A stretch of DNA of 23,697 nucleotides from positions 1 through 23,697 of the IMG/VR virus record IMGVR_UViG_3300038701_000951; one strand, 5' to 3'. The notes under the pieces were generated by a model. It worked only from the letters and a program-made list of their open reading frames with translations, did no database searches and was not told where the DNA came from. This DNA is from a virus. Made by a program: the position numbers and the translations under genes. Shown here in pieces: positions 2,112 to 23,004 of the stretch (the first letter of the stretch is position 1; each line of letters opens with the position of its first letter).

Positions 2112-2139
2112 TAGGTATATATACTGCATTATATAATAG

Positions 2140-2152
2140 TATCTGATAAACT
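2140..2152 (+). promoter_or_regulatory. Second copy of the TATCTGATAWACT element
   Basis: TATCTGATAAACT differs from the 1406-1418 copy at one base. It lies 42 bases upstream of the ATG of the small membrane protein. A perfect TATAAT also occurs at 2132-2137. The whole spacer 2112-2194 is very AT-rich. A promoter here is plausible, but no -35 match is evident. Confidence 0.35.
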
Positions 2153-2194
2153 GGAATCATTGTTTATAGTGGTGGTGTGTTGTATTATATAACC

Positions 2195-2488
2195 ATGAAT
2201 CCCAGTGAGAAAAAAACCTTTCAGGCAGTCAAAACAATTCTTAACAGTCCTACTGTTCGGACTGTTCTTATTGCTGTTTTTACCGTTACTAGTAGTATTA
2301 TTAGCTTTGGTGCTGGAGTATCTCAGACTTTTCGTGATATCGAATCAACAGTTACTGCTAACGCTGATAGCGTAACTACCCTAGAGGAGGCCATAGTGGT
2401 AATACAAGCCTACGTTGAAAGGGACAACATCCAAGATGCTGAATTGAACGCTAAGCTGGATACGGTATTGCTTTTACTAAGCGACTAG
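2195..2488 (+). CDS. Small membrane protein with one transmembrane segment and helical tail
   Basis: This 97-residue protein is read from the ATG at 2195; a GTG at 2177 would add six residues. A charged N-terminus (MNPSEKK) is followed by a hydrophobic segment at about residues 26-46 (RTVLIAVFTVTSSIISFGAG). The rest is a predicted helical, acidic tail ending LDTVLLLLSD. The topology would suit a membrane-anchored accessory protein, an antiholin or a superinfection-exclusion factor, but no family is recognised. Its TAG stop at 2486-2488 shares a CTAG with the stop of the convergent minus-strand gene. It is the last plus-strand gene of the window. Confidence 0.7.
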   Translation: MNPSEKKTFQAVKTILNSPTVRTVLIAVFTVTSSIISFGAGVSQTFRDIESTVTANADSVTTLEEAIVVIQAYVERDNIQDAELNAKLDTVLLLLSD

Positions 2489-2889
2489 CTCTCCCTCATA
2501 GCCCAAGGGTTCTTTTCAAAATAATCACTCTTTATAGCTATCAACTCGGCTGCACTTATCTCCCCTTGGTGATATCTCCATATATGCCAACTAACAAAAA
2601 GGCCCATCTGAGCAGGCCTGTTCTGTTCTGGTGTTAACCCGTTTTGTCTCTCGGCTTCTGCTGCTGTTATCCACTCTGGAGGGTTCTCCATTAAGTGTTG
2701 ATATAGGTTGTGTTGGTGAAAGTGTTCAGACTGCCTAAGCATTAGACCATTCTCTGGGTTGTCATAGTATTCCCCTCTAGTATGATTTTTATGAGCACAT
2801 ATCATTGGCTCTGTATTTAATCCAGTAACCTCTGATTTATGCCCTGCTCTATCTTTTATGATTCGTCTGGACTTTGCGGAAAACGGCAT
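2485..2889 (-). CDS. HNH-like nuclease family protein, Cys-poor
   Basis: This 134-residue protein has a basic N-terminus (KSRRIIKDRAGHKSEVTG). A central block follows, with CAHKNHTRGEYYDNPENG and then LMLRQSEHFHQHN (about residues 31-62). The order His, His, DNPENG, His is that of small HNH proteins that lack the two zinc CxxC pairs. If active, it would cleave DNA using a metal bound by these histidines and the Asn. The C-terminal half is helical and has Trp residues. It overlaps the upstream 101-residue gene by 34 bases, so they form a unit. The nuclease assignment rests on this motif alone. Confidence 0.65.
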   Translation of the reverse strand: MPFSAKSRRIIKDRAGHKSEVTGLNTEPMICAHKNHTRGEYYDNPENGLMLRQSEHFHQHNLYQHLMENPPEWITAAEAERQNGLTPEQNRPAQMGLFVSWHIWRYHQGEISAAELIAIKSDYFEKNPWAMRES

Positions 2890-3161
2890 TGTATGTTTTT
2901 AATAGATACAGAATAAGCCTCATTCACCGCAGCTGTTATTCTTCCTATCATTTCTTCTCTACCTTCCGTGCTTCTATCACAAAGATCTATTGCGTCTAAT
3001 ATACCTGCATAGATTAGGTCAAGTGTGCCCCTAGGGTCCTCTTGGTCCAGAATATCAAAAAGAGACCTGAAAGACACGAAGTCTTCGATCTCATTTATGA
3101 GTAGCGGTTCTAGACCTAGGTACTCTGAAGTGTTAGGAAATTTATCGGGATGTATAGGCAT
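2856..3161 (-). CDS. Unknown acidic 101-residue protein
   Basis: I do not recognise the family. The protein is acidic and mostly helical, with INEIEDFVSFRSLFDILDQE (about residues 23-42) and a second helix region near EEMIGRITAAVNEAYSVSI. There is no membrane segment and only two cysteines. It is directly upstream of, and overlaps by 34 bases, the HNH-like gene, so it may partner or inhibit that protein. This is inference from position only. The ATG is preceded by AT-rich sequence without a ribosome site. Confidence 0.7.
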   Translation of the reverse strand: MPIHPDKFPNTSEYLGLEPLLINEIEDFVSFRSLFDILDQEDPRGTLDLIYAGILDAIDLCDRSTEGREEMIGRITAAVNEAYSVSIKNIQCRFPQSPDES

Positions 3162-3210
3162 TTCTCATTCTAAACACATAGTTTAGTTTAGGCAATGACT
3201 TATAGTGAGA

Positions 3211-3229
3211 AGGGGCGGACTAGGCCCCT
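3211..3229. terminator. G+C-rich hairpin AGGGGC/GCCCCT, weak terminator
   Basis: A 6-bp perfect stem (3211-3216 with 3224-3229) encloses a 7-base loop. On the minus strand it is followed only by TCTCACTAT, so the T tract is poor. It lies just downstream of the 29-residue basic peptide and upstream of the 101-residue gene. It could attenuate transcription or stabilise an mRNA end. Confidence 0.35.
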
Positions 3230-3252
3230 GATAGAAAAAGATCACCTACTTT

Positions 3253-6356: not shown

Positions 6357-6914
6357 TTAAAAAGTTCCTCCTTGATATAAAACTCCACCTACTGGGCTCG
6401 TAAACGTTCCAAAGTTAAAGCTTGTCTGTTCTTTTAACTCTTTTTTAACTCCCGTATCTATCTCTTTAATCTTCTCTAGAATACTTGTTTCCATCTCTTT
6501 TATTCTATCAGACATACTTAATGCAGTATCCTCTATCTCCCTATGGTTGTGCCCCTCTAGGGAATATCTCTTAAACTCTTGTGTGATTCTATCTAATTCC
6601 AGGTCTACTGCATCCCTAAGCCTTACTAGGTCCTTCTGAGTGGCCTTCTTATCTAGTTCCTTGTAAACCCTAGATAGTAGTAGCTCATTACTCTGCTGTA
6701 CTAAAGTAGATACGGCCATTAACTTTGGCCTTAGCTCGTCCTTAAGTACATATTCACCGTGCCTATGCTCATAGGGAACCGGCTGTTTAGCTAGCTCCCT
6801 AATCTCATTTATCTCTTTTGACTGGTCGTACTCAGGGTGGTCATGTGACCTTAGGGCATATTCATTATGCTCATGGTCTAGATGCCCCTGTAGTCTTTTG
6901 TCATATGTCTGCAT
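6357..6914 (-). CDS. Histidine-rich fibre or fibre-adaptor protein with coiled coil
   Basis: This 185-residue protein has four HxH motifs: HEH (14-16), HDH (24-26), HRH (50-52) and HNH (122-124). The first three lead into x-E-Y (HEHNEY, HDHPEY, HRHGEY). In trimeric phage fibres such HxH motifs hold metal ions along the axis. Residues about 62-165 are a long charged coiled coil. The C-terminus (FGTFTSPVGGVLYQGGTF) is Gly/aromatic. The similar HSHTEY in the next gene shows that the two products share building blocks and probably join end to end in one appendage. The start overlaps the upstream stop (TAATG). A structural role is clear, but its exact position in the virion is inferred. Confidence 0.75.
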   Translation of the reverse strand: MQTYDKRLQGHLDHEHNEYALRSHDHPEYDQSKEINEIRELAKQPVPYEHRHGEYVLKDELRPKLMAVSTLVQQSNELLLSRVYKELDKKATQKDLVRLRDAVDLELDRITQEFKRYSLEGHNHREIEDTALSMSDRIKEMETSILEKIKEIDTGVKKELKEQTSFNFGTFTSPVGGVLYQGGTF

Positions 6915-9151
6915 TAGAAGTATGAGTTAAACAATCCTTCGAGTTCCTGTAATTTCAACGCTGCGGTCTCTGGTGTATCTCCAAACCCTGGTACGAATCT
7001 ATAGAACTGTATACGTTCCTCTTCATTAATAGCACCACCTGAATTCAACCTACCAACTGCCTCTGCTATTTGATCTCTTAATTGAGCATATGCTTGTGCC
7101 TCTCCACTTCTAGCGAACTGTGGCAAGCTTAACTGAGCACTCATAAGATTAATATCTTGCCCCTCTAGTAGGTTCCTCAGCTGAGATAACCCTGTTAGTC
7201 CGAATTGTGCCCTACCTTGGTTTTGACTCATTTCTTTGCTACCCTCCTGGTCTTCTCCTAAGTAATCAGCCAACCTCAAAGCGTCTCCAAAGTCTCCTCC
7301 TGTCATTTGCATAGCCATTTGGAATAGGGCCATCTTATCGGGAGCCGTCCCTTGTGTTGATACTGATTCGTACTGCTCAATGTCCCTCGCAGGGTCACCT
7401 GTGATTTGAACCGCGTCTGTATTTACTGGGGGTTGTGCACCGCCAGTACTACTACCTAATAACGCCCCTACTCTTTGTGGCACTGCCTGGTTACCCAGTA
7501 ATTGTGCTGCTTGGAATGCCTGTGGTGAGCCTACTCCTGGTACTCTTGCAAGTCCCCCAACCAACGCATCGTCAACTCTACTAGTCAAAGCCCTTGGCGA
7601 GAACCTACCTGCCGCACTAATACCTCTACCTGCAACATCTGTGCCCGCTTCTACCGCCTTACCAACCCCTGGTAGTGGGACCCTTAGGAAAGGTCCAAAA
7701 TCAACCCTAGTTCCCTTAGACGCAGCCTCAAGTGTCGCGTCTTGCAACATCAATAGATTCGATAGATCATCCATTACTCCTGAGAACCTAGTTCCTTGTG
7801 CCTCTTTTTTAACTGCGTTAGATATTCCTTTTCTCACTTCCATCAATACTCTATTCTTATCAGCCAACTTAACCCCCTGGAAAGCCCTAGAGCCTAACCT
7901 TTGGTCTAACGATCTCCTGAAGTTATTAAGTTGTGTGACACTGACCTCGTCACCCAGGTCAGCCAAGTCTGCGAATATAGAGGAAATACCCTCTCTATTT
8001 AGTAGTTTAGGTTCATTCTTAAAAGCACTTCTAACTGAGTCTAATATACCCTTAGTCTTCACGGTCTTGCCTGCCGATACCAATGCTTCATCAGCTTGGC
8101 TCACTAAGGCACTTATAGCCTCGTCTGTACTATTAGCAATCTGTGATTTGGTTGCTGTTGGAAGGTTAAAATCATCTAGTGTTTTCATTAGCTGGGTTCC
8201 ACGTCTCGTTAGCTCCTTAGGTGCCATATTAAGCTTCTTAGCATCTAATCCTAGTCTAGATGCCCTAACCCTTGTTCCCGCACCTGCTACTGCCTCTCCT
8301 GTCTCCCTAGTTGCTGTTGTGACTGCCCTACTTGGAGTTACTCCCTCACTAAGCTCAGCCATATTTAAGATTGATTTTCTAAGTGGGTTATCTGGCGCTA
8401 TATTATCAACAAGATCCTGAACCGCCGCTGTTCTTTGTCCACCCTGTGGCATTCTCATAGCTCTTTCTAGTGCCGCATTTGCATCGTCAGCCGAACTTAA
8501 CACTAGTCCCTCACCTGTCTCTTGTACACCTTTTTGTGCTGCTCTTCCACTAGCCTTGCTTAGTACTTTCCCTGCCTGTTGGAACGTTCCACCAAGTACA
8601 CCACCTACTAAGGCCCCGCCTGCTACATCTTCAGCACTTATCTCCCTATCTAGTGGTGTTGCCCCTGCTGTACCTAGCGCTCCACCTAATGCCCCCGATG
8701 CTACCGCACCTCCGAAACCTCCGAGTCCTCTTGCCAATGTTCCACCTGGTATCAAATAAGAACCTACACCTGCAGCTGTTCTAGCTAGAAATGCTGGCGT
8801 ATTATCTTGCTCTTCTTTTGTCAGTATTTGTGGTCTACCTGGTGCTCCACCACTTGCTAGGTCAGATACTAACTGCCCTCCTATACGTGCTGTATTTGCA
8901 AATGGGTCTACTATCCCTGCTGCAACATTCCCTATAAGACCTTTATCTCCACGTCTGAAGCCATACTCTTGCCCATCTTTTACAGTCCTATAGTCTGCTT
9001 GTGGGTTCTCTGTTAAGTATTGCTGTGCTTGTGAACCCCTAAGGATCCTTCGCCCTTGACTAGTGAACTCGGTAGGGTCCACTTTAGGCTTTCTAAGTGT
9101 CCCTGCTTTGAACCTTTTTTTAATATCATCATCAAATTGTTTCTTAGCCAT
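6914..9151 (-). CDS. Large internal virion (ejection) protein, 745 residues
   Basis: There is no recognised catalytic domain. The N-terminus is basic (MAKKQFDDDIKKRFKAG). Residues about 70-200 hold three Ala/Gly-rich hydrophobic stretches (such as FLARTAAGVGSYLIPGG and EDVAGGALVGGVLGG) that could insert into membranes. The rest is mostly helical, with Gln/Ala-rich segments near the C-terminus. This composition and the position after adaptor, nozzle and fibre genes match ejection proteins of podoviruses, which leave the capsid before the DNA and build a channel through the cell envelope. No lysozyme or transglycosylase motif is visible, so the channel role is the main inference. Confidence 0.7.
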   Translation of the reverse strand: MAKKQFDDDIKKRFKAGTLRKPKVDPTEFTSQGRRILRGSQAQQYLTENPQADYRTVKDGQEYGFRRGDKGLIGNVAAGIVDPFANTARIGGQLVSDLASGGAPGRPQILTKEEQDNTPAFLARTAAGVGSYLIPGGTLARGLGGFGGAVASGALGGALGTAGATPLDREISAEDVAGGALVGGVLGGTFQQAGKVLSKASGRAAQKGVQETGEGLVLSSADDANAALERAMRMPQGGQRTAAVQDLVDNIAPDNPLRKSILNMAELSEGVTPSRAVTTATRETGEAVAGAGTRVRASRLGLDAKKLNMAPKELTRRGTQLMKTLDDFNLPTATKSQIANSTDEAISALVSQADEALVSAGKTVKTKGILDSVRSAFKNEPKLLNREGISSIFADLADLGDEVSVTQLNNFRRSLDQRLGSRAFQGVKLADKNRVLMEVRKGISNAVKKEAQGTRFSGVMDDLSNLLMLQDATLEAASKGTRVDFGPFLRVPLPGVGKAVEAGTDVAGRGISAAGRFSPRALTSRVDDALVGGLARVPGVGSPQAFQAAQLLGNQAVPQRVGALLGSSTGGAQPPVNTDAVQITGDPARDIEQYESVSTQGTAPDKMALFQMAMQMTGGDFGDALRLADYLGEDQEGSKEMSQNQGRAQFGLTGLSQLRNLLEGQDINLMSAQLSLPQFARSGEAQAYAQLRDQIAEAVGRLNSGGAINEEERIQFYRFVPGFGDTPETAALKLQELEGLFNSYF

Positions 9152-9163
9152 TTATATGAGACT

Positions 9164-10189
9164 TTAATTACTAAATCTGTTTTGTAGAACACTAGGATTT
9201 AAGTTTGGTGTAGGCGTTTGTACTAAACTCCCATTCCTTGCTGCCTGTGCCCTTTGGAGTTCATCAATATTTATATTCATTAGTGGAACCCCTGGTACGT
9301 CAACCATCCCCATCAGAGGGCCTCCGCCCGCTCCAGTCAAGAATTTAGCCCTTTGGGTTGGGTCCATGTTGGCTCCTAGGTATGCTAGGTACTCAGGGTC
9401 TACCTGCTGGCCTGCGAGGTCTCTTCTTATCTTAGTACCATCAATCGCAATTGCCGTATCATCTACCGCTCCAGCTACTTGTCCCTCCTGGATTGGGGCA
9501 TTAGCCGCCTCTGATCTGCCGTATAAGGCATTCATAATGTCATACGGGTTGTATCCACTAGCTGAAGCTCTTGCTGCTGCTGCTCTCTCTTGTGCAGATC
9601 TAATAGCATTATCTTTCTCCCTTAGTGTCAATGTTGCATTGTTTAGAATTTGTCCTATTGTACTTTGTAGGTTTTGTTCGATCCCTGTTAGACCCTGTAA
9701 GGCTGTGTTCTCTAATTCACCCCTTCTCGTGCTAAATCTCTCTCCAATCTGTCCTAACTGCTGTAGGGTGTCTCGGTCGATTCTATTTGATAGCTCTAAA
9801 CTAGCACTTGACGGTGCTCCACCAATAGCCCTGATCCTTTGCCTTGCCCTTGTTTGTGCTTCGTCTGCTCCCTGTCTGGCTGCTCCACCTGCTCTAATTC
9901 TCTCTTGTTCTGCCGCCTGTGTGCCCCTCGTAAGGTTCTGTGCAAGTAAATCTCTGGATACATTGGCCTGGTCAATTGCGGCCTCTCTTTGCCCCTGTAG
10001 GGCTCCGATTGATTGGTTAAACTGCCTGTAGATATCCCTGTATTGAGGGTCTACTGAAGACACATCAGCCCTACCTATCTGTAGTTCTGGTGTTCTAAAT
10101 TGTCTAGTTAAAAACTCTGGTAACGGTGCTCTTTGAGCTGGGGTGAACTGTGAATTAGTTCCTGTTATTGGTACTGTTCCTGGTAACAT
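9164..10189 (-). CDS. Second internal virion / ejection protein, helical
   Basis: This 341-residue protein is rich in Ala, Gln and Arg, with long helices (about residues 60-210: REAAIDQANVSRDLLAQ, QEQ-type repeats, ERAAAARASASGYNP). The C-terminal third is Pro/Gly-rich and ends LNPSVLQNRFSN. Such proteins, adjacent to a larger hydrophobic one, are typical of podovirus ejection modules. I chose ATG 10189 because the earlier ATG at 10228 only adds an AT-rich spacer that translates as a run of Leu and Ile and would overlap the upstream gene by 14 bases. If the longer start is real, the protein would have a membrane-targeting N-terminus. Confidence 0.68.
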   Translation of the reverse strand: MLPGTVPITGTNSQFTPAQRAPLPEFLTRQFRTPELQIGRADVSSVDPQYRDIYRQFNQSIGALQGQREAAIDQANVSRDLLAQNLTRGTQAAEQERIRAGGAARQGADEAQTRARQRIRAIGGAPSSASLELSNRIDRDTLQQLGQIGERFSTRRGELENTALQGLTGIEQNLQSTIGQILNNATLTLREKDNAIRSAQERAAAARASASGYNPYDIMNALYGRSEAANAPIQEGQVAGAVDDTAIAIDGTKIRRDLAGQQVDPEYLAYLGANMDPTQRAKFLTGAGGGPLMGMVDVPGVPLMNINIDELQRAQAARNGSLVQTPTPNLNPSVLQNRFSN

Positions 10190-10214
10190 AATGATTAATA
10201 GTAATAATAATATT

Positions 10215-11405
10215 TTATAGATATGCACAAACTAGCAATACCTTAGTTGTAACAATGTCGCCACGGAACCCTAGGTTTGTTAGAGTCCCGCTGGTTGATA
10301 CTATTCTGGTATTTAAATAATAGGTGGTTGGTGTCGTAATTGATAATGTTGTATTTAGTGCTCGATCTATACCTGCTCTGAACAGTCCAGTATAAGAACT
10401 ACTAGAAAGTCCGCCTACTACAGAGGATGAACCATAGGTTGTCAGAGTAGAATCACTCTCACTGTTATCCGCAGTCGAGATAGTAAGCTCCATAGTTGGG
10501 CTACTTGAAGAGGACGCGGTATTAGCTCTTGTACCAGTCATAAGACACTGGATAACTGGTATCCATAAACCGGTTATAGCTGTTCCTTCTAGGCCTGAGC
10601 CACCGCCGTTGTACCAAGTATCTAAACTCACAGCGGCCTGTACATTATTAGCCGTGTTGCTGAACATTTCATATGTCCACTTAGTTTTATCCAATGGGAA
10701 ACCTATTGGGGATACTCCTGGTAGTGCGTACTGTGGAGATGTGATAGCGGCATCAGCTAAATCATAATCAATACCTCCATAGATAGTTACCGTTGTGTCG
10801 GTAGAGAAAGCCACTTTTGTGATTATGAAATATTTGTCAGTTGTTTGGTTCAATTTAACTTTCATCCCTGGGGCCAGTGTGTCCGTCCTATCAACCCCTG
10901 CGATTGTGAATGTGAATTCAGGATCACTTGCGCTTGCGTAAGTCCAGGTATCTGAGGTTGATATCCAACCTGACTCTGTCAGTGCTCTGTTTGTAGAATC
11001 TATGTTACTACCATTTGCTGATAGGCTTGATCCAATACTAGTTGCTGTTATAGCCCCGTGTGTACCGTCATCGTTATGTTCCGTCTCGTAGCTATCTATG
11101 AAACCGTTGAACATTTCTTTTACTACAATATCTGTAATAGCTGCCCCTGCCTCGTGTGACACTGCAGAAGTGTCTGCCTTCCCTCTCCCATCTGTAGATA
11201 CTGTTAATGTATTCCCTGATACGCTTTCAATATACACAACCTCTTCTGAACTTGTTCCTTCGTCAATAATTGCATATCCGCCTGTAGCGTCGAATACAGA
11301 ACCGTCAGAAACGCTTATAGTCGTAGCCGAGTTGGTTAATGTACTAGAAAGTGTTGTCGCCGCCTCGTTTCCTATCGCTCTTTGTAAATTCGGTGTGTTT
11401 CCCAT
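10215..11405 (-). CDS. Tail fibre/appendage protein
   Basis: This 396-residue protein is rich in Ser, Thr and Gly. Residues 14-85 form a small beta domain (TLTNSATTISVSDGSVFDAT, then EVVYIESVSGNTLTVS) of the type found at the virion-attached end of many phage fibres. A HNDDGTH motif lies near residue 110, and the rest looks like beta structure. The C-terminus ends in hydrophobic TTKVLLVCAYL. It sits between the nozzle gene and the ejection proteins, so it is probably a nozzle-attached fibre or plug. Its sequence differs from the downstream HxH fibre pair, so the phage may have two kinds of appendage. It could also be a capsid decoration protein. Confidence 0.68.
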   Translation of the reverse strand: MGNTPNLQRAIGNEAATTLSSTLTNSATTISVSDGSVFDATGGYAIIDEGTSSEEVVYIESVSGNTLTVSTDGRGKADTSAVSHEAGAAITDIVVKEMFNGFIDSYETEHNDDGTHGAITATSIGSSLSANGSNIDSTNRALTESGWISTSDTWTYASASDPEFTFTIAGVDRTDTLAPGMKVKLNQTTDKYFIITKVAFSTDTTVTIYGGIDYDLADAAITSPQYALPGVSPIGFPLDKTKWTYEMFSNTANNVQAAVSLDTWYNGGGSGLEGTAITGLWIPVIQCLMTGTRANTASSSSSPTMELTISTADNSESDSTLTTYGSSSVVGGLSSSSYTGLFRAGIDRALNTTLSITTPTTYYLNTRIVSTSGTLTNLGFRGDIVTTKVLLVCAYL

Positions 11406-11407
11406 TG

Positions 11408-13357
11408 TTATATCTGATTAACTTCGTCTAGAGGTATAAATTTATTACTTCTCTCTCTCATTGTATATGACAAATTAAGTAATGTCGCCTTAGCGTTGAG
11501 TGTGCTACTGGCCATCCCGTAAGCAAAAGACCTTCCTACCGCTGCCCTTCCCAGCCTATGGAACGGGAAACGCTTATTTACTAAGTTATCCCCAAGGTCC
11601 GTGTTAACAAACGTAGAGATTCTAAGTCTAAGCCTTCTAAGTCTTCCTGATCTAAGTGTGGTCTGTGTATAACTAGGCGCTACGGTTACGTCATACTCGT
11701 TCTTCACATTGTCTACAAAGAAATTAACCTTAACCTGTCCTCTAGCGTTTCTCATCCTAAAATCTGCCCAGCCCCCTCTTTTGTATAAGAAAGGTTTTTT
11801 GCCGTCATCTACTCTTGTTTTCCATTCCCAATTAATAGCGCTCCCTCGGTCATTTTCATAATTCTCTGATAGCTCTGCTGTCCGATAATCGGAGTTATCA
11901 ATAAATAGCTTTCTTTCTACTCCACCACTGTCTACAAACAACCTCATATGTTCCATCCCTATTTCTACCCACTTAGTAAATGCTAGTCTTTCTCTGTCGT
12001 AAACAATTGCTTGATTGTTCATTAAACTGCTTCCATTAGCAAATGACATAATGTATTTACCATCAAAGTATTCTGCTGTTATCCACTCTTCCCTACTTGG
12101 ATTGATTGTATCTAGTTCCGGTCTAACTCTTGCTGATAGCTCATTAGTTCTCAGTGATGTAAAGTTGGGTTCATTTCCTAATACATAGATCGAATACCCC
12201 CTACCTGGTTTTTTACCTACAAAAAATAGATCGTTTTCTATCTGCCTAATCGATCTGTGTGAGACACACCCTAGTGATCTATTTATATTCCCTAGTGCTG
12301 GGATACCGTCTGATGTGAAGTTGAACTGCCAAACACTGTTCTCCTTCAAGATAACCGCAATGCTCTGGAATAGTCCAATGCCTCTAATATCTCCATCCGC
12401 ATCTGTTGCAGACACGTCCACAAAACCACCACCGTCACCTAGTGCAAAACTATCTGGTTTATCTACACCAGCAGAGAAGTAAAGCCTAGAAGGTGCATTT
12501 GTATCACCTGCGATGAGTAATGCTGATTTGAATGTTTGGATATATTTACCCTTGGGACCTGTTGTTGTATTAGCTAGCGGCACACTATAAAGCACAGAAG
12601 GAGTGATCGTTCCGTAATCTACAAACTCCGTAGCATCCTCCCCGTTAACTCTTGCAATGAATGTTTCAAAGCCTGACTCAACACCGTAAACGTTATATCC
12701 AGACGCTCCACTTACCGCGTTCCATGTAATTGTAGTTGAATAGTTGCTATCTGGTGCACTTGGGTCGAAGTTCCATTGATCTCGCTCTCTATTAGTTTGT
12801 ACTACTCCAGCTGTAGATCCATCGGTCTCACCTACATTTGTTATTGCTGTTATCTTATAGCTTAGTGACGAATTACCAGAGATAAGCGATGCCCCTCTAG
12901 CTACGCTAACACCGGTTGGTGCTGATATTTGTGTGAACCTTGTGAACCCACTTCCATCATACTTAGTCAAATCATCAGTCCCATTACTGATATACATAAC
13001 ATTATTCAAGGTTGTTGACGTCGCTAGTGCCGTACTTGTGAACGAAGCCCCACTAATAGTTGTCCAATCACCCGTAACCTGGTTAAGTTTCTTACCTAGT
13101 CCATCTTCGATTTTAATTAACTCTTGCTCCCCACTTTCGTTTGTGTAAGTGTCAAACATCGTCACAATAGAGCCATTAGAGTCGTTTTGGTATGTCGCAG
13201 AACCCCATCTTGGAGTTGGGGAACCCTCATCTACTATAATTATATTATTCGCTATAGAAAGCTGGTTTGATTCAATTTTGTTTGCGTTTACAAGTGTATT
13301 TAGACCACCTTTAAAGTTATCTATCGCTACTTGTATTTCTCTTTTTGGTTTTGCCAT
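11408..13357 (-). CDS. Tail nozzle protein (gp10/gp12-like beta-propeller)
   Basis: This 649-residue protein begins with the signature of podovirus nozzle proteins: NFKGGLNTLVNANKIESNQL followed by SIANNIIIVDEGSPTPRWG (about residues 13-51). Here an Asn-rich segment leads into R-x-G. The middle has blade-like repeats (ITNVGETDGSTAG, WNAVSGASGYNVYGV, a fibronectin-like piece, and SVWQFNFTSDGIPALG). In P22 and T7 such proteins form the hexameric tube below the adaptor and hold the DNA until ejection. The start overlaps the adaptor stop by one base (TAATG), which fits adaptor and nozzle being made together. The family call is by pattern, not by search. Confidence 0.8.
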   Translation of the reverse strand: MAKPKREIQVAIDNFKGGLNTLVNANKIESNQLSIANNIIIVDEGSPTPRWGSATYQNDSNGSIVTMFDTYTNESGEQELIKIEDGLGKKLNQVTGDWTTISGASFTSTALATSTTLNNVMYISNGTDDLTKYDGSGFTRFTQISAPTGVSVARGASLISGNSSLSYKITAITNVGETDGSTAGVVQTNRERDQWNFDPSAPDSNYSTTITWNAVSGASGYNVYGVESGFETFIARVNGEDATEFVDYGTITPSVLYSVPLANTTTGPKGKYIQTFKSALLIAGDTNAPSRLYFSAGVDKPDSFALGDGGGFVDVSATDADGDIRGIGLFQSIAVILKENSVWQFNFTSDGIPALGNINRSLGCVSHRSIRQIENDLFFVGKKPGRGYSIYVLGNEPNFTSLRTNELSARVRPELDTINPSREEWITAEYFDGKYIMSFANGSSLMNNQAIVYDRERLAFTKWVEIGMEHMRLFVDSGGVERKLFIDNSDYRTAELSENYENDRGSAINWEWKTRVDDGKKPFLYKRGGWADFRMRNARGQVKVNFFVDNVKNEYDVTVAPSYTQTTLRSGRLRRLRLRISTFVNTDLGDNLVNKRFPFHRLGRAAVGRSFAYGMASSTLNAKATLLNLSYTMRERSNKFIPLDEVNQI

Positions 13358-14073
13358 TAATAATCTAGATAACCACCAATTGCCTCAATGCCTTGTGCAT
13401 TATCAACAAACACCATAGACACCCCCTGATTACTCTCTCCTAGTTCATTGTTAATTAGCATCCTATCCATTTCCATCTGCGCCATGTCCCTATATTGCGA
13501 GTACTGGTCTCCCTCATCGTCAATTAAGAACATGTCCGCCACAGTGTCATAAACCAAGAAGTCATCACTTGGGCACTTACTTATGTCTGTTCCGTCCGTA
13601 AGCTCAGCCCTAGATACTCCCAGTGAGTCTGTTGCTAGGTTACTTGTGTAGTAATTTAGGGGGATACTTGCAACAACTGTAGGTGTTGGGTTGATATTTA
13701 GTCTGTATCCTGTGCCTGGGTTCCCACTAATATATATGTAAAAATCGGCTGTATTGCGGTTTAAAGCGTCTCCAATCTCTACTACTGGATATTGTTCAGC
13801 TCCAACAGTCAATCTTTGACTCTGTGGAATAAGTAGGTTCCCATACTTATAGTCAGATGGGAGGTCTACATAATTCTGGTCTGCAACTGTATTTAGTGTT
13901 GTAGTCTCAATTAACTGTCTCCATGTATATCCCTTCTCTAAAGCCCATTTACGCAAAGACTTATTTAGTAGTGTCTTCCTTCTTGTATATTCTGAGGAGC
14001 TAGAATCTATACTACCACCTGCTTGATCGAAGATTGCGGTAATTCTAGTCTGTAGTTCTGTTAAATTAGCCAT
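13357..14073 (-). CDS. Head-tail adaptor (connector) protein
   Basis: This 238-residue protein begins with helical MANLTELQTRITAIFDQAGG, followed by RRKTLLNKSLRKWALEKGYTW. It then has a beta-rich centre (NYVDLPSDYKYGNLLIPQS, YPVVEIGDALNRNT) and a C-terminal helix with YRDMAQMEMDRMLINNE. This helix, beta, helix plan is that of podovirus adaptors (gp4/gp11-like), which form a dodecamer under the portal and bind the nozzle. It is the first gene after a terminator and is coupled to the nozzle gene. The exact subfamily cannot be named from the sequence. Confidence 0.7.
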   Translation of the reverse strand: MANLTELQTRITAIFDQAGGSIDSSSSEYTRRKTLLNKSLRKWALEKGYTWRQLIETTTLNTVADQNYVDLPSDYKYGNLLIPQSQRLTVGAEQYPVVEIGDALNRNTADFYIYISGNPGTGYRLNINPTPTVVASIPLNYYTSNLATDSLGVSRAELTDGTDISKCPSDDFLVYDTVADMFLIDDEGDQYSQYRDMAQMEMDRMLINNELGESNQGVSMVFVDNAQGIEAIGGYLDY

Positions 14074-14124: not shown

Positions 14125-14142
14125 ACCCCCCTTGCAGGAGGT
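14125..14142 (-). terminator. Intrinsic terminator after the glycosyltransferase gene
   Basis: On the minus strand ACCTCC pairs with GGGGGT around a 6-base loop, with one T-G wobble, followed by TTTTCTTTT. It lies 37 bases after the glycosyltransferase stop and 52 bases before the adaptor start. It closes the modification cassette and implies a separate promoter for the tail operon in 14074-14124. No clear promoter consensus is visible there. Confidence 0.8.
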
Positions 14143-14178: not shown

Positions 14179-16524
14179 CTAGTTTAGTTTACCACGGAAT
14201 AAATCCTCTATCCAGCGGTCTGCAACTCTATCCCAACTGAAATGTTCCCTAGCCCACTTCTTCATATCCTCTCGGTATTCTTCCTCTCCACCTATTTCTT
14301 CTTTGTTGAGTAATGTTATAAGTGTACCCTCAAATTTACTTAACGGTACTTTAATACCATACTGCTGTGTTTCTTCTAGTGCCGTAATCCCTGTAGTGAT
14401 TGGGATTGCTCCTAGTGCTTGTGCTTCCATTGCTGTAATGCAGGATGTTTCGGCAGGTCCTATTAATGGATAAACCCAGTACTCAGCTTTCAAATACTCT
14501 TTGTATAGTTCTTTTTTACCAATACGTCCACCTTCATTGATACCGAACTCTTTCATCTTTTTAATAATCTTTTCTTTTAGTTCTGTAGCCCAGTCAAACT
14601 TAGCGAATACATTCCAGCTATGCCAACCGTAATACCAACTTAGTGTTGCATGTGGTGCGTCTTTGGTCACCCTCTCCCAGAAATTTACTAGATGTTCTAG
14701 CCCCCTGTCTGCGCTTGAAGCATTAACACAATATCCCTTTACCCTCTCAATGCCCCCGACTTCTTTCTCTACCTCTTTGATTAGGTCTATGTTAATCCCG
14801 TTTGTGGTGTAATAAAATTTGCTAGATGGAACCGCAGGTGCCGTCATTCTGTGGTAATCAGATAGCACAATAACCTTATCTAACTGGTCAATAACATCCT
14901 TAGTATAATCAAATGGCTGCATTATATCTTGTAGCCATAAATACTTTTTATCCGCCTTTATGTCGTAGTTCTTGAATAAATCTACGTTTCTCCAGCTTAC
15001 TAGTATGTCGAACTCATCTTCATAAGGGAAGCTATAAACATCCCTCCAAGTAACCCCGTCAAATACCGACCCGTCTTCTACAGGATTGCCCCATACAGTG
15101 ACGGTATACCCAGCCTTTTGAAACCTGGTAGCCAACTCCACGACTGCCGTCTCACTACCACCACCGCCTTTAGCTAATATCGTGCCAGGATCCCATTTCT
15201 CGAAGTTGTTTAAACAGTAGAAGTCCACAGCGTCTTTGTGTACCTTGTAGTCTCCTAGGGCCCTTCTAACTTGAATTTGTTCAGGTATTGGGAAGTCTAG
15301 TTTAGGTAGTAACTCCTCCGCTTTGTATGGGTCTTCTCCCATATTTGAATATTGTTGTGCTGATTTAGCAAATGTTTGTCTCACATCGTGCATTCTGGCC
15401 TGCTCTACCGTTTCCTTTATACTCTGCTTTAATACTTTTGTATCTCCCTTACCCTTAACTAACTTACTAAATTGCTCAAGTACATCTAGGGATTGGCTAT
15501 ACATCTTCAGTCTTTCATAGGCTTCCGCAAGTATGTATGTGTTCATTTTCGTCATTTCATAAGGCATGATCTCAGCCCCGCTCATTGCATCGTACTGGAA
15601 CATTGTTGCCCTTTTGGCGAACGCAATAGCCTCTACATTGTCACCAAGTAGCAAATAGTACTTAGCCATGAATATGTTAGGTTCTGGAGATAATGGTTGC
15701 CTTGCATGTGCCATAGCCGCATAGTCTAGTGCAATTTTGTAACTACCTGATGATTCATACAGTTCAGCAAGCATGATACACGCTGATTTATAATCCTTAT
15801 CCGATAACTCCATCCCAACAGCTTTAGATAACGCCATCTCCATTAAGTCAGGCATCTTAGCCCCTCCAGCGTCTCTACCTAATAAGTACCAAACCCTTGG
15901 GTCTTCTGGCATCTGTTGGCTCATCCACTTTAAAGCCCTTACGTTACGTAATGCGCTCTTTTTGAAGTCTGGGTTGTAGTGATTAACTTGGAAGTAATCC
16001 GTAAACATCTCAAGCATTTCGCCTACTGGGTAGATATTCTCGTGCACTATCCATTTATCCTCGTCGTTCTCCCACTTGTAAGCATCTCTCTTTAATATCC
16101 TCTGCTTGGTGTGGCTACTAATAACCTTATCACCATCAAGCTTGTAGTTATATGTACACCCTATACCAGTGACGCCCTCTTCTTGTGCCTTCTCTAGTAG
16201 TGGGGCTAAATCACCCCTAGTTATAAACTCATCATCGCTATCTATCCACAAAATCCATTCAGATGTTGCGGGTTTAAATGATCTGTTTCTAGCTTTTGCA
16301 AATCTAATCTGTGGGGCGCCTTCTAGTCCTACGTAGTACTCAGGGTTATCTTCTGGGTTAATAGTGTCTATTACGCAATTGTGTTCTTTTAGTACTTCTA
16401 GTGTGTTGTCTGTTGAACCAGTGTCTAGTACGTAAATATTCTCTACATGTGGTTTGATCGACTCAAGCATCTTAGAGATATATTCAGCACTATCTTTGGT
16501 AATAATACAAGCATCTATTGTCAT
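14179..16524 (-). CDS. Two-domain glycosyltransferase (GT2 + TPR-like + GT-B)
   Basis: This 781-residue protein has two catalytic-looking domains. Residues 1-200 are a GT-A family 2 domain: CIITKDSAEY at the start, LDTGSTDNT (33-41) and the metal-binding WIDSDDE with Asp95-x-Asp97. Residues about 205-410 are helical repeats resembling TPR units (EALxYA-like pairs such as YKIALDYAAMAHARQPLSPE). Residues 440-781 are a GT-B family 4-like domain, with AKGGGGSETA (451-460) at the start and the donor-binding E-x7-E (Glu692, Glu700) in ETSCITAMEAQALGAIP. It would transfer sugars in the cytoplasm to virion protein, host polymer or nucleic acid. The methyltransferase gene ends 10 bases upstream. Two linked transferases suggest a disaccharide or polymer product. 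The acceptor is unknown. Confidence 0.9.
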   Translation of the reverse strand: MTIDACIITKDSAEYISKMLESIKPHVENIYVLDTGSTDNTLEVLKEHNCVIDTINPEDNPEYYVGLEGAPQIRFAKARNRSFKPATSEWILWIDSDDEFITRGDLAPLLEKAQEEGVTGIGCTYNYKLDGDKVISSHTKQRILKRDAYKWENDEDKWIVHENIYPVGEMLEMFTDYFQVNHYNPDFKKSALRNVRALKWMSQQMPEDPRVWYLLGRDAGGAKMPDLMEMALSKAVGMELSDKDYKSACIMLAELYESSGSYKIALDYAAMAHARQPLSPEPNIFMAKYYLLLGDNVEAIAFAKRATMFQYDAMSGAEIMPYEMTKMNTYILAEAYERLKMYSQSLDVLEQFSKLVKGKGDTKVLKQSIKETVEQARMHDVRQTFAKSAQQYSNMGEDPYKAEELLPKLDFPIPEQIQVRRALGDYKVHKDAVDFYCLNNFEKWDPGTILAKGGGGSETAVVELATRFQKAGYTVTVWGNPVEDGSVFDGVTWRDVYSFPYEDEFDILVSWRNVDLFKNYDIKADKKYLWLQDIMQPFDYTKDVIDQLDKVIVLSDYHRMTAPAVPSSKFYYTTNGINIDLIKEVEKEVGGIERVKGYCVNASSADRGLEHLVNFWERVTKDAPHATLSWYYGWHSWNVFAKFDWATELKEKIIKKMKEFGINEGGRIGKKELYKEYLKAEYWVYPLIGPAETSCITAMEAQALGAIPITTGITALEETQQYGIKVPLSKFEGTLITLLNKEEIGGEEEYREDMKKWAREHFSWDRVADRWIEDLFRGKLN

Positions 16525-16534
16525 CTTTATGTTG

Positions 16535-17104
16535 TTAATATGTTTTATATTTCATGTCTGGTCTGCCTTGGCTCCAGGTCTCATCCCATTCAAGTCCTAG
16601 CCAATCGGTATTATCAATCATCACAATACCACCTTCTATCATCCTACCTTCTAGTAACTCTAACTCTTTAGTCACGGCCTCATCTGTGTGGTCACCGTCC
16701 AGTAGTATAAATGCAAACTTCATATCTTTTAGTCTAGATTCGTTACCACCTAGCCATAAGGTGTGATCTAGCGTTAGGAAGTCATGTGATGGCATTCTGT
16801 AGTGTATATGTGTCTTATTAATCTCTTTAGCCTTAGATGTAAGTAGGTCCATAGTCCCTAGTGCCATCTCGTCGTTAAACTCATTAGATATATGCCCATG
16901 CATCATTTGGTAGGGCTTTGCTCCCCAAGGATCTACACTAATAACTATACTGCTTTGGGGCTGTAGTAGGGCTAAAAGGGCTGAACCCCCCATACGTGTG
17001 CCTACATCAACAAAAACCCCTTCTGGAGCCTCTTTCATTATCTCTTCTAAGTGCATGAACTTGCTAAGTCCCATGTCTGAGTATTTCATTATGTCTTCAA
17101 TCAT
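16535..17104 (-). CDS. Class I SAM-dependent methyltransferase (Methyltransf_24-like)
   Basis: This 189-residue protein has the core of a small Rossmann methyltransferase. Motif I is VFVDVGTRMGGSALLAL (30-46), the acidic end of strand 2 is ISVDPW (Asp58), and the later strands are FILLDGDHT (132-140) and GGIVMIDNTDW (158-168). The LDGDHT and DNTDW pair is typical of sugar or surface-polymer methyltransferases and of cephalosporin-hydroxylase-like relatives. It probably methylates the glycan made by the adjacent glycosyltransferase, capping or masking it. The ATG overlaps the upstream stop (ATGA), so the gene is translationally coupled. DNA methylation is unlikely because no DPPY/NPPY-type motif is seen. 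Confidence 0.82.
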   Translation of the reverse strand: MIEDIMKYSDMGLSKFMHLEEIMKEAPEGVFVDVGTRMGGSALLALLQPQSSIVISVDPWGAKPYQMMHGHISNEFNDEMALGTMDLLTSKAKEINKTHIHYRMPSHDFLTLDHTLWLGGNESRLKDMKFAFILLDGDHTDEAVTKELELLEGRMIEGGIVMIDNTDWLGLEWDETWSQGRPDMKYKTY

Positions 17105-17427
17105 GAATTGTAGCTAAATTGTGGATGTCGTTTAAAAAATTCTCTATATACTTCTTGCTTCCCACTAAAAGGCAGTGACCCCTCCTCTTTATAGATTAGG
17201 TCTAACCACTTCATATATCTTACTGGGATGACCCCATTACCACCCTTACCTTCTTTATGGAATTGTCTCATATGTGCTGCAGCCTGTTCGTGTTCTATCA
17301 TCTCTATCGGGTGTGTGCTGTATAGCAAACCAAGTATTGCTTCTGTCTGCTCCCAAAACCTTTTCTTATTAGGGGCTTGGTCATCTAGGTACGCAAACCT
17401 GATTGTGCTATTTAGTTTGGAGCTCAT
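17101..17427 (-). CDS. Unknown 108-residue protein in the modification cassette
   Basis: I do not recognise this protein. It is basic and helical, with conserved-looking blocks KKRFWEQTEAILGLLYSTHP (about residues 21-40) and REFFKRHPQFSYNS at the end. There are two His-rich stretches (IEHEQAAAHMRQFHKEGKGG). No membrane segment is present. It overlaps the upstream 80-residue gene by 20 bases and the downstream methyltransferase by 4 bases, so it is expressed with both. A structural accessory or an adaptor for the modification enzymes is possible, but nothing in the sequence proves either. Confidence 0.75.
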   Translation of the reverse strand: MSSKLNSTIRFAYLDDQAPNKKRFWEQTEAILGLLYSTHPIEMIEHEQAAAHMRQFHKEGKGGNGVIPVRYMKWLDLIYKEEGSLPFSGKQEVYREFFKRHPQFSYNS

Positions 17428-17650
17428 ATATCTTACTCTTAAGAAGTTTAGTCGAGTTCCAGTAGCTCGGTGCTACAACGGGGAGTGTTCCTTGATACCA
17501 TGCCTGCTCAATCGCAAGTATATTCATGTCATCTGGGAATATAAATTGGAGTTTCTTTGGACTTAGTCGTACGATATCAGAGTAAGGATATCCTAGACTA
17601 TGGATTGCGCTAGCAAGTCCTAGGTCTGATGTTCTATACATAATCTTCAT
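17408..17650 (-). CDS. Small DUF5659-like phage protein
   Basis: This 80-residue protein has the pattern of the DUF5659 family often found near phage capsid genes: an initial YRTSDLGLASAIHSLGYPY, a strand LQFIFPDD, and a C-terminal helix with W-x-G-x-L-P-V and LLKSKIYEL. The function of the family is not known. The ATG at 17650 follows an A-rich leader (TATAAAG) just after a terminator, so it opens the next transcription unit. A second ATG (MYRT) three codons later could also be used. The family call is from memory of its pattern and is moderate in strength. Confidence 0.65.
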   Translation of the reverse strand: MKIMYRTSDLGLASAIHSLGYPYSDIVRLSPKKLQFIFPDDMNILAIEQAWYQGTLPVVAPSYWNSTKLLKSKIYELQTK

Positions 17651-17667
17651 CTTTATATTTTAAATAA

Positions 17668-17687
17668 AGGGGGCTTTGCACCCCCCT
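17668..17687 (-). terminator. Terminator or attenuator after the coat protein gene
   Basis: On the minus strand AGGGGG pairs with CCCCCT around an 8-base loop, followed by TTATTT. It lies 13 bases after the coat stop and 18 bases before the next ATG. The T tract is imperfect, so partial read-through into the next genes is likely. This would give more coat than downstream protein. Confidence 0.7.
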
Positions 17688-17699
17688 GTCTTAATAAGC

Positions 17700-18593
17700 T
17701 TAAGCTGCTGTGATGTTCTCTACTGAGATTCCTCCCTTAGGGAAGTTCACTTCTAGAGTTCCGCTACCTAAGATAGCTTCCTTCTCGAAGTATCCATCAC
17801 GGGATAGTTCTTCGATGTGTGGTGTGTCGAATACGGCTAGTTTAGCTGTATTGTCTCTGAACATGAACAAACGGTCAGATCCTGCTAGGTCACGGTGAGG
17901 ATACATTTCAATAGTACCGAAGTCTGACTCGTATACCTCAATGTTTGTGATTAGCTTGCTTGCTTTAGAAGCTTCTAGGTTCTTTGTTGTGCTTGTTACG
18001 AAGTTCTCTGAGATAGTTCTCTTTAGTGAAGCATCAGCGAATAGCATGATTGTTCCACCTGTTGAGTTCTCCCATACGTTCTGCACGTAGCTGTTCAATC
18101 GGTTTTCAGTGATTGACTGTCCTGATGCGTTAGTAGCTGTTGAAAGAAGTGTTAGGAAACCCTTCATGATACGAGCTGTACCAGAAGTACCAGAGATACC
18201 AGATCCCCAGATGATTTCATTTTCCATCTTAGTCTTCCATGCGGCCATTGCGTATCGGCGCTGCTTTGCCAATTCTGATCCACCTACCGCATCAACGATG
18301 TTTTGCTCTCGTGATACTTGGTAAGGTGCTTCAACTGTTTCTACGTAGTTTACGTTTCGTGTTGGTGTTAGGTTGTTAGCTGTTCCAGCTGCAGTTCCTT
18401 CTGCGTATGCACTTGCACCTGCTCCACGGACTTGTTCCTGTGTTAGGTACTCATGATACACGTTGGTTGCCTTACCCTTCTCTAGTTTTCCATAGATAGG
18501 AGTATCCATTGGAGACAACTCACCGATTACATCGGATAGGTCTTCTCTGTTCTGGATTCTGTTACCAGCGTATGTGTTTTGTACGTCTGCCAT
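17700..18593 (-). CDS. Major capsid protein, SU10/phiEco32 type (HK97 fold)
   Basis: This 297-residue protein resembles the SU10 major capsid family (DUF5309). It has NREDLSDVIGELSPMDTPIY (about residues 15-34), a following EAPYQVSREQNIVDAVGG (about 89-106) and WKTKMENEIIWGSG in the long-helix region. The C-terminal part (EVYESDFGTIEMYPHRDLAG, then FDTPHIEELSRDGYFEKEA) is also typical. Many copies form the icosahedral or elongated head. Its codon use (CGT, GCA, TAC) looks more regular than that of its neighbours, as expected for a highly expressed gene. It follows the scaffold gene by six bases and is followed by a terminator. There is no prohead protease gene beside it. Confidence 0.9.
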   Translation of the reverse strand: MADVQNTYAGNRIQNREDLSDVIGELSPMDTPIYGKLEKGKATNVYHEYLTQEQVRGAGASAYAEGTAAGTANNLTPTRNVNYVETVEAPYQVSREQNIVDAVGGSELAKQRRYAMAAWKTKMENEIIWGSGISGTSGTARIMKGFLTLLSTATNASGQSITENRLNSYVQNVWENSTGGTIMLFADASLKRTISENFVTSTTKNLEASKASKLITNIEVYESDFGTIEMYPHRDLAGSDRLFMFRDNTAKLAVFDTPHIEELSRDGYFEKEAILGSGTLEVNFPKGGISVENITAA

Positions 18594-21428: not shown

Positions 21429-22769
21429 TTACCAGCTGTCGTTGTCCCAAGATGTAAATGTCAGGTGCTTGTTGGGATCTTCATAGCGATCTGATTTTAG
21501 GTCTTCTAAGCCTACGACCAAGTATCTAAACGCATCTGCTGCATGTGATGCCCAGTCATGTAGTGGCTCAGTTGAATAAGAGTTGAGTCTTTTGACCCAA
21601 GTCCTCTTATATTCCTTTAAACATTGTAAACCACGTTCACACGTTTGTGAATTAATCCGCACTCGGTGGAAGTTCGTACGAACACGTTGAATACCGTCCT
21701 GAACACCCAATTTTGCTACGATTTTGACGTTATTTAGCCCTAATTCCTGCAACATCTCTTTTCTGGTCTTCGCCTCTGCACTGCGTCCTTGTATTCTATT
21801 ATCAGCGTCATGGGGCAAGTAATGGGCTGCGTAATCATAGCCCTCCTTGGAGCTTAGTACATCCCTGTAATGTTCCATTCCCTTGCCAAAGGCTTCGTAG
21901 TAATCAATCACGTTAATCATAGTCTCATCTGGTCTTTGATAGAACCATATAGAAGTTGAGTCGCTCACCCCTAAGTCCCATGCTGTATAGACCTTTAGTT
22001 GTGGATTATGTTCTACTCCCTCTATTCTCTTTTCTCTAAGCATCTGCCCTATCTCATTAGCATAGATAGCACCTTGTACTGGCGTTGAGAAGTCACAGTA
22101 ATACTCTTGCCTAAATAATCCTTCATCCCCGTAGTTTCTTACATATTCCTTTCTAATTTCCTCCAGCTCCTGATCGCTAAATACTTTCGTATTCTCTACT
22201 GTAAGTGTTGTGCTGAACCAGTGCTCTAGCTCCTCTGCATTCTTGTGAAATGCTTTAGCGTGATTATCCCCTCTAGGTGTGTAGTTGAATATAGCCCATC
22301 CTTTATTCTCCCTAAGTATTGGGTCCATATAACCAAGCACTGTTGGATCTTGCAGAGACCACTCTGAAAAGATAATGCCTACGGGGTTGGTACCAACAAG
22401 TCTATCTACGTCTTTAGACCCTACAATCTGTAAATAAGAGCCGTTCTTAAGGGTAAGTTTCATCTGCTGCCCATTCTCTGACTCCCACAATTCTTCTGGT
22501 ATATGTTTTAGTGTTCTGAATCCATCACCATCTACGTTGTCCCACAGAGCTTTACGACCTTGGTTAAACTCAGGGAATACATAGAAGTAACCACCTACAC
22601 GCTCTACCATTGCTTTAGCAAGCACCGCTACACACACCTTATCCTTACCTGATCTTCTATGCTGAACTAAATCAAACCTTTTATACTCTCCACTATCCCA
22701 TGCCTTAAGGAAAGGTAGTTGGTACCCTCTAGGTTGGAAGTTGGCAGGTATTAGTATCTCGTTACTCAT
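21429..22769 (-). CDS. Terminase large subunit (ATPase and nuclease)
   Basis: This 446-residue protein has an N-terminal ATPase with Walker A RRSGKD (38-43), Walker B GIIFSE (131-136, Glu136) and coupling motif FNYTPRG (161-167). A C-terminal RNase H-like nuclease follows, with Asp264 in TAWDLGVSDST, LPHDADN further on, and DWASHAADAFRY near the end as the last metal ligand. It drives DNA into the head and cuts the concatemer. I chose ATG at 22769, whose ATGAGTAA overlaps the stop of the upstream gene. A TTG at 22784 would add five residues. Motifs are complete, so it should be active. Confidence 0.95.
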   Translation of the reverse strand: MSNEILIPANFQPRGYQLPFLKAWDSGEYKRFDLVQHRRSGKDKVCVAVLAKAMVERVGGYFYVFPEFNQGRKALWDNVDGDGFRTLKHIPEELWESENGQQMKLTLKNGSYLQIVGSKDVDRLVGTNPVGIIFSEWSLQDPTVLGYMDPILRENKGWAIFNYTPRGDNHAKAFHKNAEELEHWFSTTLTVENTKVFSDQELEEIRKEYVRNYGDEGLFRQEYYCDFSTPVQGAIYANEIGQMLREKRIEGVEHNPQLKVYTAWDLGVSDSTSIWFYQRPDETMINVIDYYEAFGKGMEHYRDVLSSKEGYDYAAHYLPHDADNRIQGRSAEAKTRKEMLQELGLNNVKIVAKLGVQDGIQRVRTNFHRVRINSQTCERGLQCLKEYKRTWVKRLNSYSTEPLHDWASHAADAFRYLVVGLEDLKSDRYEDPNKHLTFTSWDNDSW

Positions 22770-23004
22770 CGTGGAATATATCAAAAACTCCCTTAAACTT
22801 GTTGTAAACTTCTACTCCTGGCTTATCGATGTCAAACACCCTAAGTACATATGGCTTAGGGAAAACATCAACAAGACTTCGTATCTCTTTTATTACATTT
22901 TGTTTAGGTAGGAACTCAACCTCCTTAGTATTGCTATCGTCCGCTACTCCTATTCTAAGTACCAGTAGGTTCGTGAAGTATTTCTTTTTTATCCTCGGGT
23001 GCAT
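22762..23004 (-). CDS. Unknown 80-residue protein between terminase subunits
   Basis: I do not recognise this protein. It starts basic (MHPRIKKKYFTN) and then alternates strands and helices (LLVLRIGVADDS, PYVLRVFDIDKPGVEV). Its first 50 bases overlap the end of the small terminase gene in another frame, and its last 8 bases overlap the large terminase start. This tight nesting supports co-translation. It might be a terminase accessory, but the sequence does not prove this. Without the overlap the remaining frame still encodes about 64 residues. Confidence 0.6.
   Translation of the reverse strand: MHPRIKKKYFTNLLVLRIGVADDSNTKEVEFLPKQNVIKEIRSLVDVFPKPYVLRVFDIDKPGVEVYNKFKGVFDIFHDE

Follow-up and report, generated by a model that had tools for sequence, protein, structure and literature searches.

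A candidate capsid-linked glycosylation module in uncultured podovirus-like phages

Gene content and transcription of the locus

We focus here on a gene cassette in a 23,697-nucleotide stretch of viral DNA, the whole of which we call the window. As an earlier note had described, four tightly coupled open reading frames (ORFs) occupy the interval between coat and adaptor genes, all on the minus strand. The coat gene (17700–18593, minus strand) encodes a major capsid protein (MCP) of the SU10 type, with matches to SU10_MCP (Pfam PF17236, E 2.5e-54) and to the phrog_1328 major head protein (1.4e-45), and the gene for the head-tail adaptor (13357–14073, minus strand; Pfam PF24175, SU10_adaptor, 3.1e-8) forms the cassette's downstream border. 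Between them lie, in order from the MCP, an 80-aa ORF (17408–17650), the gene for a small helical protein of 108 aa (17101–17427), that for a class I SAM-dependent O-methyltransferase of 189 aa predicted from Pfam matches (16535–17104) and that for a bifunctional glycosyltransferase (GT) of 781 aa with the arrangement GT2-TPR-GT4 (14179–16524). The first two overlap by 20 bp, the second and third by 4 bp, and 10 bp separate the methyltransferase gene from that of the GT. No nucleotide match to the window was found among phages, and a bacterial genome collection searched with the MCP and with the GT yielded no relative by either.

A hairpin was found on the coding strand at each flank of the cassette (17687–17668 and 14141–14127), where terminators had been proposed. 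The intrinsic terminator 3′ of the GT gene (14127–14141, minus strand; extended hairpin −20.2 kcal/mol) is clearly stabler than shuffled sequences (z −3.1), and the intrinsic-terminator-like hairpin in the gap between MCP and cassette (17668–17687, minus strand; −14.2 kcal/mol) is moderately so (z −1.8). Hairpins like the latter trail the MCP in 9 of 70 relatives, where the expectation is 0.9. The proposal that the cassette is independently transcribed found no promoter support: promoter-like sites number 7 against 18.2 expected from shuffles, fewer than chance, and a search for a Bacteroidota-type site upstream returned none. We thus discard a promoter of its own, the candidates not rising above chance. 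The hairpin behind the MCP is probably a partial terminator that some transcription reads through; it would probably pass only part of late transcription on to the cassette, so that coat is made in quantity and enzyme sparingly.

Of the two small proteins, that of 80 aa is a singleton. It has no Pfam match up to an E value of 10, a limit at which HMMER filters could conceal very weak ones, and no relative among phages or in IMG/VR; its description as DUF5659-like is dropped. The 108-aa protein, on sequence grounds, is a divergent member of a family of MCP-adjacent small proteins, which we call sp (hmmsearch E 8e-4 among 7070 ORFs, the next non-member at 0.41). Its AlphaFold2 model (mean pLDDT 78) has four helices. 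The fold has no match in the PDB, and its top match in BFVD is an uncharacterised phage protein (E 0.7).

Domains and nearest relatives of the glycosyltransferase

The GT was described earlier as a GT2 and a GT4 domain joined by helical repeats, and signals for all three are present: GT2 at residues ~1–180, TPR/helical repeats at ~187–425 and GT4 at ~430–781. The repeats lie directly behind the GT2 catalytic domain, with Pfam TPR matches at 250–361 and model helices at 187–425. No membrane helix was found. The GT2-TPR half matches the profiles of GmaR (22ao, 3.9e-37), SunS (7msp, 8e-30) and ThuS (7msk, 1.3e-24), and a phmmer search with the window GT alone recovers the GmaR/SunS-type homology of GT2 at 1.7e-7. 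The earlier note had put forward structure prediction of the two transferase domains. In fold comparison, the GT2-TPR half matches SunS and ThuS first (3e-18 to 3e-15), over ~300–390 columns for SunS, followed by OGT and SPY, and the GT4 half (430–781) adopts a GT-B fold with Z ~29 to MshA and sucrose-phosphate synthase. At the GT2 site, F75, R79, D95, D97, D98, H161 and E162 are invariant in 50 sequences, and the F..AR motif and DxD align with those of SunS. In the E-x7-E motif of GT4, the first Glu (E692) is invariant in 50 relatives; the second is E700 in the window and Lys in most relatives. Both catalytic sites are thus apparently intact, and we assign the GT2-TPR half, from its sequence, to the GmaR/SunS/ThuS type of protein glycosyltransferase and the GT4 half to the retaining type. 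Against the SunS S-glycosyltransferase equivalog TIGR04195, the GT scores 37.5 bits, below the cut-off of 350.

GmaR glycosylates flagellin, which its TPR domain is thought to recognise (PMC9638930). The window GT shares with GmaR, SunS and ThuS the GT2 fold, the DxD, the F-x-x-AR(N) motif and the TPR repeats that follow; unlike them, it carries a second catalytic domain, GT4, fused on, has no flagellin or glycocin gene alongside, and its neighbouring proposed acceptors lack Cys. OGT and SPINDLY, also fold matches, are TPR-coupled protein glycosyltransferases whose catalytic domain belongs to GT41 (GT-B), whereas the window GT places a GT-A domain of family GT2 before the repeats and GT4 after them.

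Linkage to the capsid gene and the variable island

A full-length relative of the GT is present in ctKR88 (27% identity over 99%), in the order MCP, small protein, GT. Scanning IMG/VR with the GT as bait gave 144 relatives, and in 31 of the 80 loci kept the GT lies within ~1.4 kb behind an SU10 MCP. A second scan, baited with the MCP and made blind to the GT, used two narrower alignments, a 20-sequence MCP alignment being too diverse. Among its 53 nonredundant loci, which are non-independent events with much shared ancestry, the GT lies downstream of the MCP in 48, within 1.8 kb in 45, and the order MCP-sp-GT holds in 45. Over 42 loci, Mantel correlations of sequence distances in the MCP with those in GT2, GT4 and portal reach 0.84, 0.86 and 0.94, respectively. 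Furthermore, in a second MCP family, phrog_14242, the GT likewise stands directly before the adaptor, without sp. Relatives retrieved with the terminase gene terL that have at least 6 kb of sequence downstream (n = 23) contain no GT there. In L019, L059 and MW202497, the GT lies between terL and portal, with sp still trailing the MCP, and the enzyme also occurs in 140–430-kb phages without an SU10 MCP match; the capsid link is therefore not universal. On these gene orders and distances, the GT is no moron that comes and goes but stays genetically tied to the gene for the SU10-type capsid protein, though not in every lineage.

The cultured podoviruses with an SU10 MCP (PaP3, Bjorn, RHph_Y25 and Venkman) have the same order as the window lineage, portal-scaffold-MCP-small protein-adaptor, but their MCP-adaptor slot holds neither a glycosyltransferase nor an island. 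Their small protein is phrog_3982 and is not detectably of the sp family: an R...IP motif common to PaP3 Orf8/phrog_3982 and sp is suggestive, but the hhalign probability is 4%.

The earlier note had asked whether the cassette comes and goes as a unit. Comparison across phages shows that it does not, with MCP, sp and GT near-constant and the methyltransferase drawn from a variable pool. The islands downstream of the GT in relatives hold 131 genes, among them at least 26 GT2 and 18 methyltransferases, and nucleotide-sugar epimerases also occur. By its gene content, the window is a stripped-down version of this variable island of methyltransferases and extra transferases behind the GT. Its own methyltransferase has a homologue in the glycan island of one relative, L024 (E 4e-16), and exceeds the Pfam gathering scores of two O-methyltransferase families, Methyltransf_24 (31.8 against 26.3 bits; E 2.8e-7) and RMNT_CmcI (25.2 against 23.2 bits; E 1.6e-5); the earlier note had placed it in a class that often acts on sugars. 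Its predicted role is O-methyl capping of a sugar.

Proposed function and competing explanations

The virion shell is probably glycosylated, because the GT resembles enzymes that glycosylate proteins and stays beside the coat gene in dozens of distant relatives. We thus consider it rather likely that the cassette is a late-expressed virion glycosylation module; the same two lines of evidence favour the earlier suggestion of a late-block unit that glycosylates and methylates a virion protein. For the acceptor, the MCP is our first choice, ahead of another head or tail protein, and we give this assignment about an even chance. In the cytoplasm, the TPR superhelix would bind capsid protein soon after its synthesis, and the GT2 site would place a first sugar on Ser or Thr rather than Cys, since MCP (17% Ser+Thr), sp and the 80-aa protein are all free of Cys. 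The GT4 site would add a second sugar, the Methyltransf_24 enzyme would then O-methylate the glycan, and in relatives the further transferases, methyltransferases and epimerases of the islands would build larger glycans. On the coat, such a glycan would conceal or shield the particle, or adjust how it attaches to surfaces.

A weaker explanation, which we regard as unlikely, is late remodelling of the host surface, in which the transferases and the methyltransferase modify a host polysaccharide or surface protein so that particles no longer adsorb to the dying cell or competitors are kept from adsorbing. This has been suggested for a late-block glycosyltransferase of Gratiaviridae phages (PMC8008677), and the many transferases and epimerases of the relatives' islands fit it; surface polysaccharide synthesis could be another use of the large islands. 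Yet the nearest solved relatives of the GT act on proteins, the enzyme has no membrane segment, and its inheritance follows MCP and portal rather than terminase, a pattern not required of a moron that acts on the host surface.

It is more doubtful still that the 108-aa protein, instead of the MCP, serves the GT as its dedicated acceptor or as an adaptor for targeting; it could, for instance, be a head decoration protein that carries the glycan. The earlier note had raised a partner or acceptor role, which the position of sp between MCP and GT in most relatives favours, as does the failure to find one in the GT-less SU10-MCP records L148, L150 and L151. However, because it trails the MCP even where the GT is elsewhere, sp more closely resembles a member of the head module than a partner reserved for the GT; in the second MCP lineage the GT occurs with no sp, and GT-less phages carry the similar-sized phrog_3982 protein in that slot, so sp may be a plain head-module protein. 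A glycocin-like acceptor role is ruled out by its lack of Cys.

Glycosylation and methylation of phage DNA to hypermodified bases, as a defence against restriction, is very improbable: DNA-hypermodifying phage GTs are known (cited in PMC12619734), but TPR-bearing GT2 enzymes of this type act on proteins, no base-hydroxylating enzyme occurs among the proteins scanned (a 23.7-kb fragment, less several small ORFs), and the methyltransferase fits O-methyltransferase families, its phrog DNA-methyltransferase match being weak (0.005).

Returning to virion glycosylation, we tentatively suggest a broader picture: a large uncultured lineage in which coat glycosylation is nearly a core trait, the fused GT attaching and extending the first capsid sugar, a hot-spot island swapping enzymes to yield phage-specific glycans, and sp possibly acting as a targeting factor. 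The capsid-locked arrangement of the GT in uncultured podovirus-like phages appears undescribed. Comparative genomics suggests that virion glycosylation may be conserved across a diverse lineage, its enzyme tied to the capsid gene, and the defined gene set makes coat glycosylation in environmental phages, and the reason for it, directly testable, while offering a compact, predicted two-site protein glycosyltransferase for laboratory study. Phage virion glycosylation has so far been documented for a few mycobacteriophages. In Che8, Corndog and Myrna, phage-encoded GTs glycosylate capsid and tail proteins (PMC12363180, PMC11256854), much as we propose for a virion protein of the window phage. 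Maravista, a relative of Che8 within cluster F1, differs from the window in having its GT genes near the genome's 3′ end and not beside the coat gene (PMC11256854).

Architecture of the cassette and its glycosyltransferase

The window, which is an entire IMG/VR virus record of 23,697 bases, carries between coat and adaptor the four-gene cassette described in the earlier note: closely packed minus-strand ORFs of 80, 108, 189 and 781 codons follow, in that order, the SU10-type major capsid protein (MCP; 17700-18593, minus strand) and directly precede the SU10-type adaptor (13357-14073, minus strand). The terminators claimed for its two sides were also found, each as a minus-strand hairpin with a T run; compared with shuffled sequence, the gain in stability is clear for the downstream one (14141-14127; z -3.1) and moderate for the upstream one (17687-17668; z -1.8). 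As to the suggestion that the cassette is transcribed independently, nothing was found in favour of a private promoter. Of 70 relatives, 9 have a hairpin behind the MCP gene (0.9 expected), and a leaky terminator that lowers expression behind the coat gene would be a simpler reading than a private promoter. In third-position GC the cassette genes (0.37-0.40) resemble the neighbouring virion genes (0.34-0.42), so that nothing here points to recent import.

The 781-residue enzyme (14179-16524) is a two-site glycosyltransferase of protein-modifying ancestry. The proposed GT2 and GT4 domains joined by helical repeats are recovered as GT2, TPR and GT4 signals in Pfam and PHROGs. AlphaFold2 models the enzyme with confidence (mean pLDDT 88.7; 50 aligned sequences), and the top Foldseek matches of the model are SunS and ThuS (E 3e-18 to 3e-15), followed by SPINDLY and OGT. 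In VIA-align, residues 430-781 group with GT-B enzymes, MshA among them (Z about 29). Among solved proteins, the family profile matches GmaR (3.9e-37), SunS (8e-30) and ThuS (1.3e-24), the last two being S-glycosyltransferases in their depositors' naming; GmaR adds N-acetylglucosamine to flagellin, presumably recognising this substrate through its TPR domain (PMC9638930). Invariant in the 50 sequences are F75, R79, the acidic D95, D97 and D98, and H161/E162 in the GT2 half, and G455-E458, N575/G576, R607 and E692 in the GT4 half; at the second position of the E-x7-E motif of GT4 the window has E, where most relatives have K. Furthermore, the two halves are separate adjoining genes in several relatives (L035, L040, L049, L058, L062, L066, L072), which supports joint function of GT2-TPR and GT4.

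Retention of the enzyme with the capsid gene

In the nearest annotated phage, ctKR88 (MW202524), the same enzyme is present in full length (27% identity), separated from the MCP by one gene, and more transferases and methyltransferases come after it. An enzyme-baited scan of IMG/VR gave 144 relatives, of which 80 were kept; 31 of these have an SU10 MCP upstream of the enzyme at a distance of about 0.35-1.3 kb, and two more have one at 7.6 kb. Once duplicates are removed and a 5.2-kb limit is set, the count is 28 of 72 loci. Because such a bait selects for the enzyme itself, a second scan was baited with MCPs, yielding 53 nonredundant loci in which the sequence continues for at least 3 kb past the MCP; about a dozen contigs are common to the two scans. 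The enzyme lies downstream on the same strand in 48 of the 53, within 1.8 kb in 45 of these; the five loci that lack it (L148, L150, L151, L152, L154) have the weakest MCP scores of the set. Pairwise distances over 42 loci correlate with those of the MCP at r 0.84 and 0.86 for the enzyme halves and 0.94 for the portal. A scan baited with the window terminase (21429-22784) found no detectable glycosyltransferase in 39 loci, 23 of them with at least 6 kb downstream, and only one weak match to the MCP profile. Taken together, co-occurrence, distance tracking and the glycosyltransferase-free terminase relatives show that the enzyme goes with the capsid gene rather than with the terminase, and that capsid gene and enzyme are retained together in a diverse uncultured lineage. 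The SU10 MCP module is missing from the terminase-baited relatives: the terminase is of different lineage from the capsid, which suggests that modules have been exchanged.

The enzyme also stands behind a capsid gene of another family in L078 and L085, with small genes in between; for L078 this MCP was tested and is phrog_14242, and there the adaptor comes next after the enzyme. The link to the capsid gene has exceptions: L019, L059 and MW202497 are SU10-MCP phages with the enzyme between terL and portal. In that interval, L019 has a phage chaperonin GroEL (phrog_5725; 1804-3246) just before the glycosyltransferase, and MW202497 a gene annotated groEL (35734-37302) beside its glycosyltransferases. 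Large phages carry the enzyme with no SU10 MCP match, as GT2-TPR-GT4 fusions on 140-430 kb contigs (L013, L020, L023, L032, L042, L048, L050, L074), where one or two extra GT4-like genes often adjoin the fusion.

Genes around the enzyme

Whether the cassette comes and goes as a unit, a comparison proposed earlier, has a divided answer: the enzyme stays with the capsid gene, and the genes behind it are variable. The 131 genes after the enzyme in relatives include at least 26 GT2 and at least 18 Methyltransf_11 members, further Methyltransf_24 members and five epimerase/dehydratases. The window methyltransferase passes the Methyltransf_24 and RMNT_CmcI (rhamnosyl O-methyltransferase/CmcI) thresholds and has a homologue inside this variable island in L024. 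With one methyltransferase, the core enzyme and the adaptor directly behind, as also in L016 and L077, the window is a reduced island.

Between MCP and enzyme, 26 loci share one family of 95-251-residue proteins (sp), whose profile, run against 7070 ORFs, finds the window 108-residue ORF at E 8e-4 (noise begins at 0.41); sp is present in 45 of the 53 MCP-baited loci. The protein that the earlier note had left as a possible partner or acceptor is thus explained as an sp member. It follows the MCP also in phages with the enzyme elsewhere, and a phrog_3982 protein of similar size takes its slot in relatives lacking the glycosyltransferase, so from gene order we lean towards a head-module protein. 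A profile comparison of sp with phrog_3982 did not establish homology (probability 4%). In L122 and L123 (93-100 kb records), sp lies about 30-60 kb from the MCP and the enzyme is still behind the MCP.

Proposed function and alternatives

We propose that the enzyme glycosylates a virion protein, the MCP being first choice, and that the glycan would then be elongated and O-methylated. Glycosylated capsids are already known in mycobacteriophages (PMC12363180, PMC11256854); a limited search of the open-access literature found no description of a capsid-locked glycosyltransferase module. Among the alternatives, the cassette might remodel the host surface, as proposed for Gratiaviridae (PMC8008677). 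DNA hypermodification would be another, and sp in place of the MCP could still be the acceptor, or else an adaptor. As for linkage, the window MCP, 108-residue and 80-residue proteins contain no cysteine; in this phage that rules out SunS-type S-linkage to them and makes O-linkage the natural inference.

Elsewhere in the window, two long proteins rich in Ala, Gln and Arg (354 residues, 9164-10228; 745 residues, 6914-9151) lie where ejection (internal virion) proteins have their place; the first set of fetched loci contained no relatives of either. A Shine-Dalgarno-like motif precedes only 3 of the 27 gene starts examined, possibly a hint that the host makes weak use of such motifs, as in the Bacteroidota for example.
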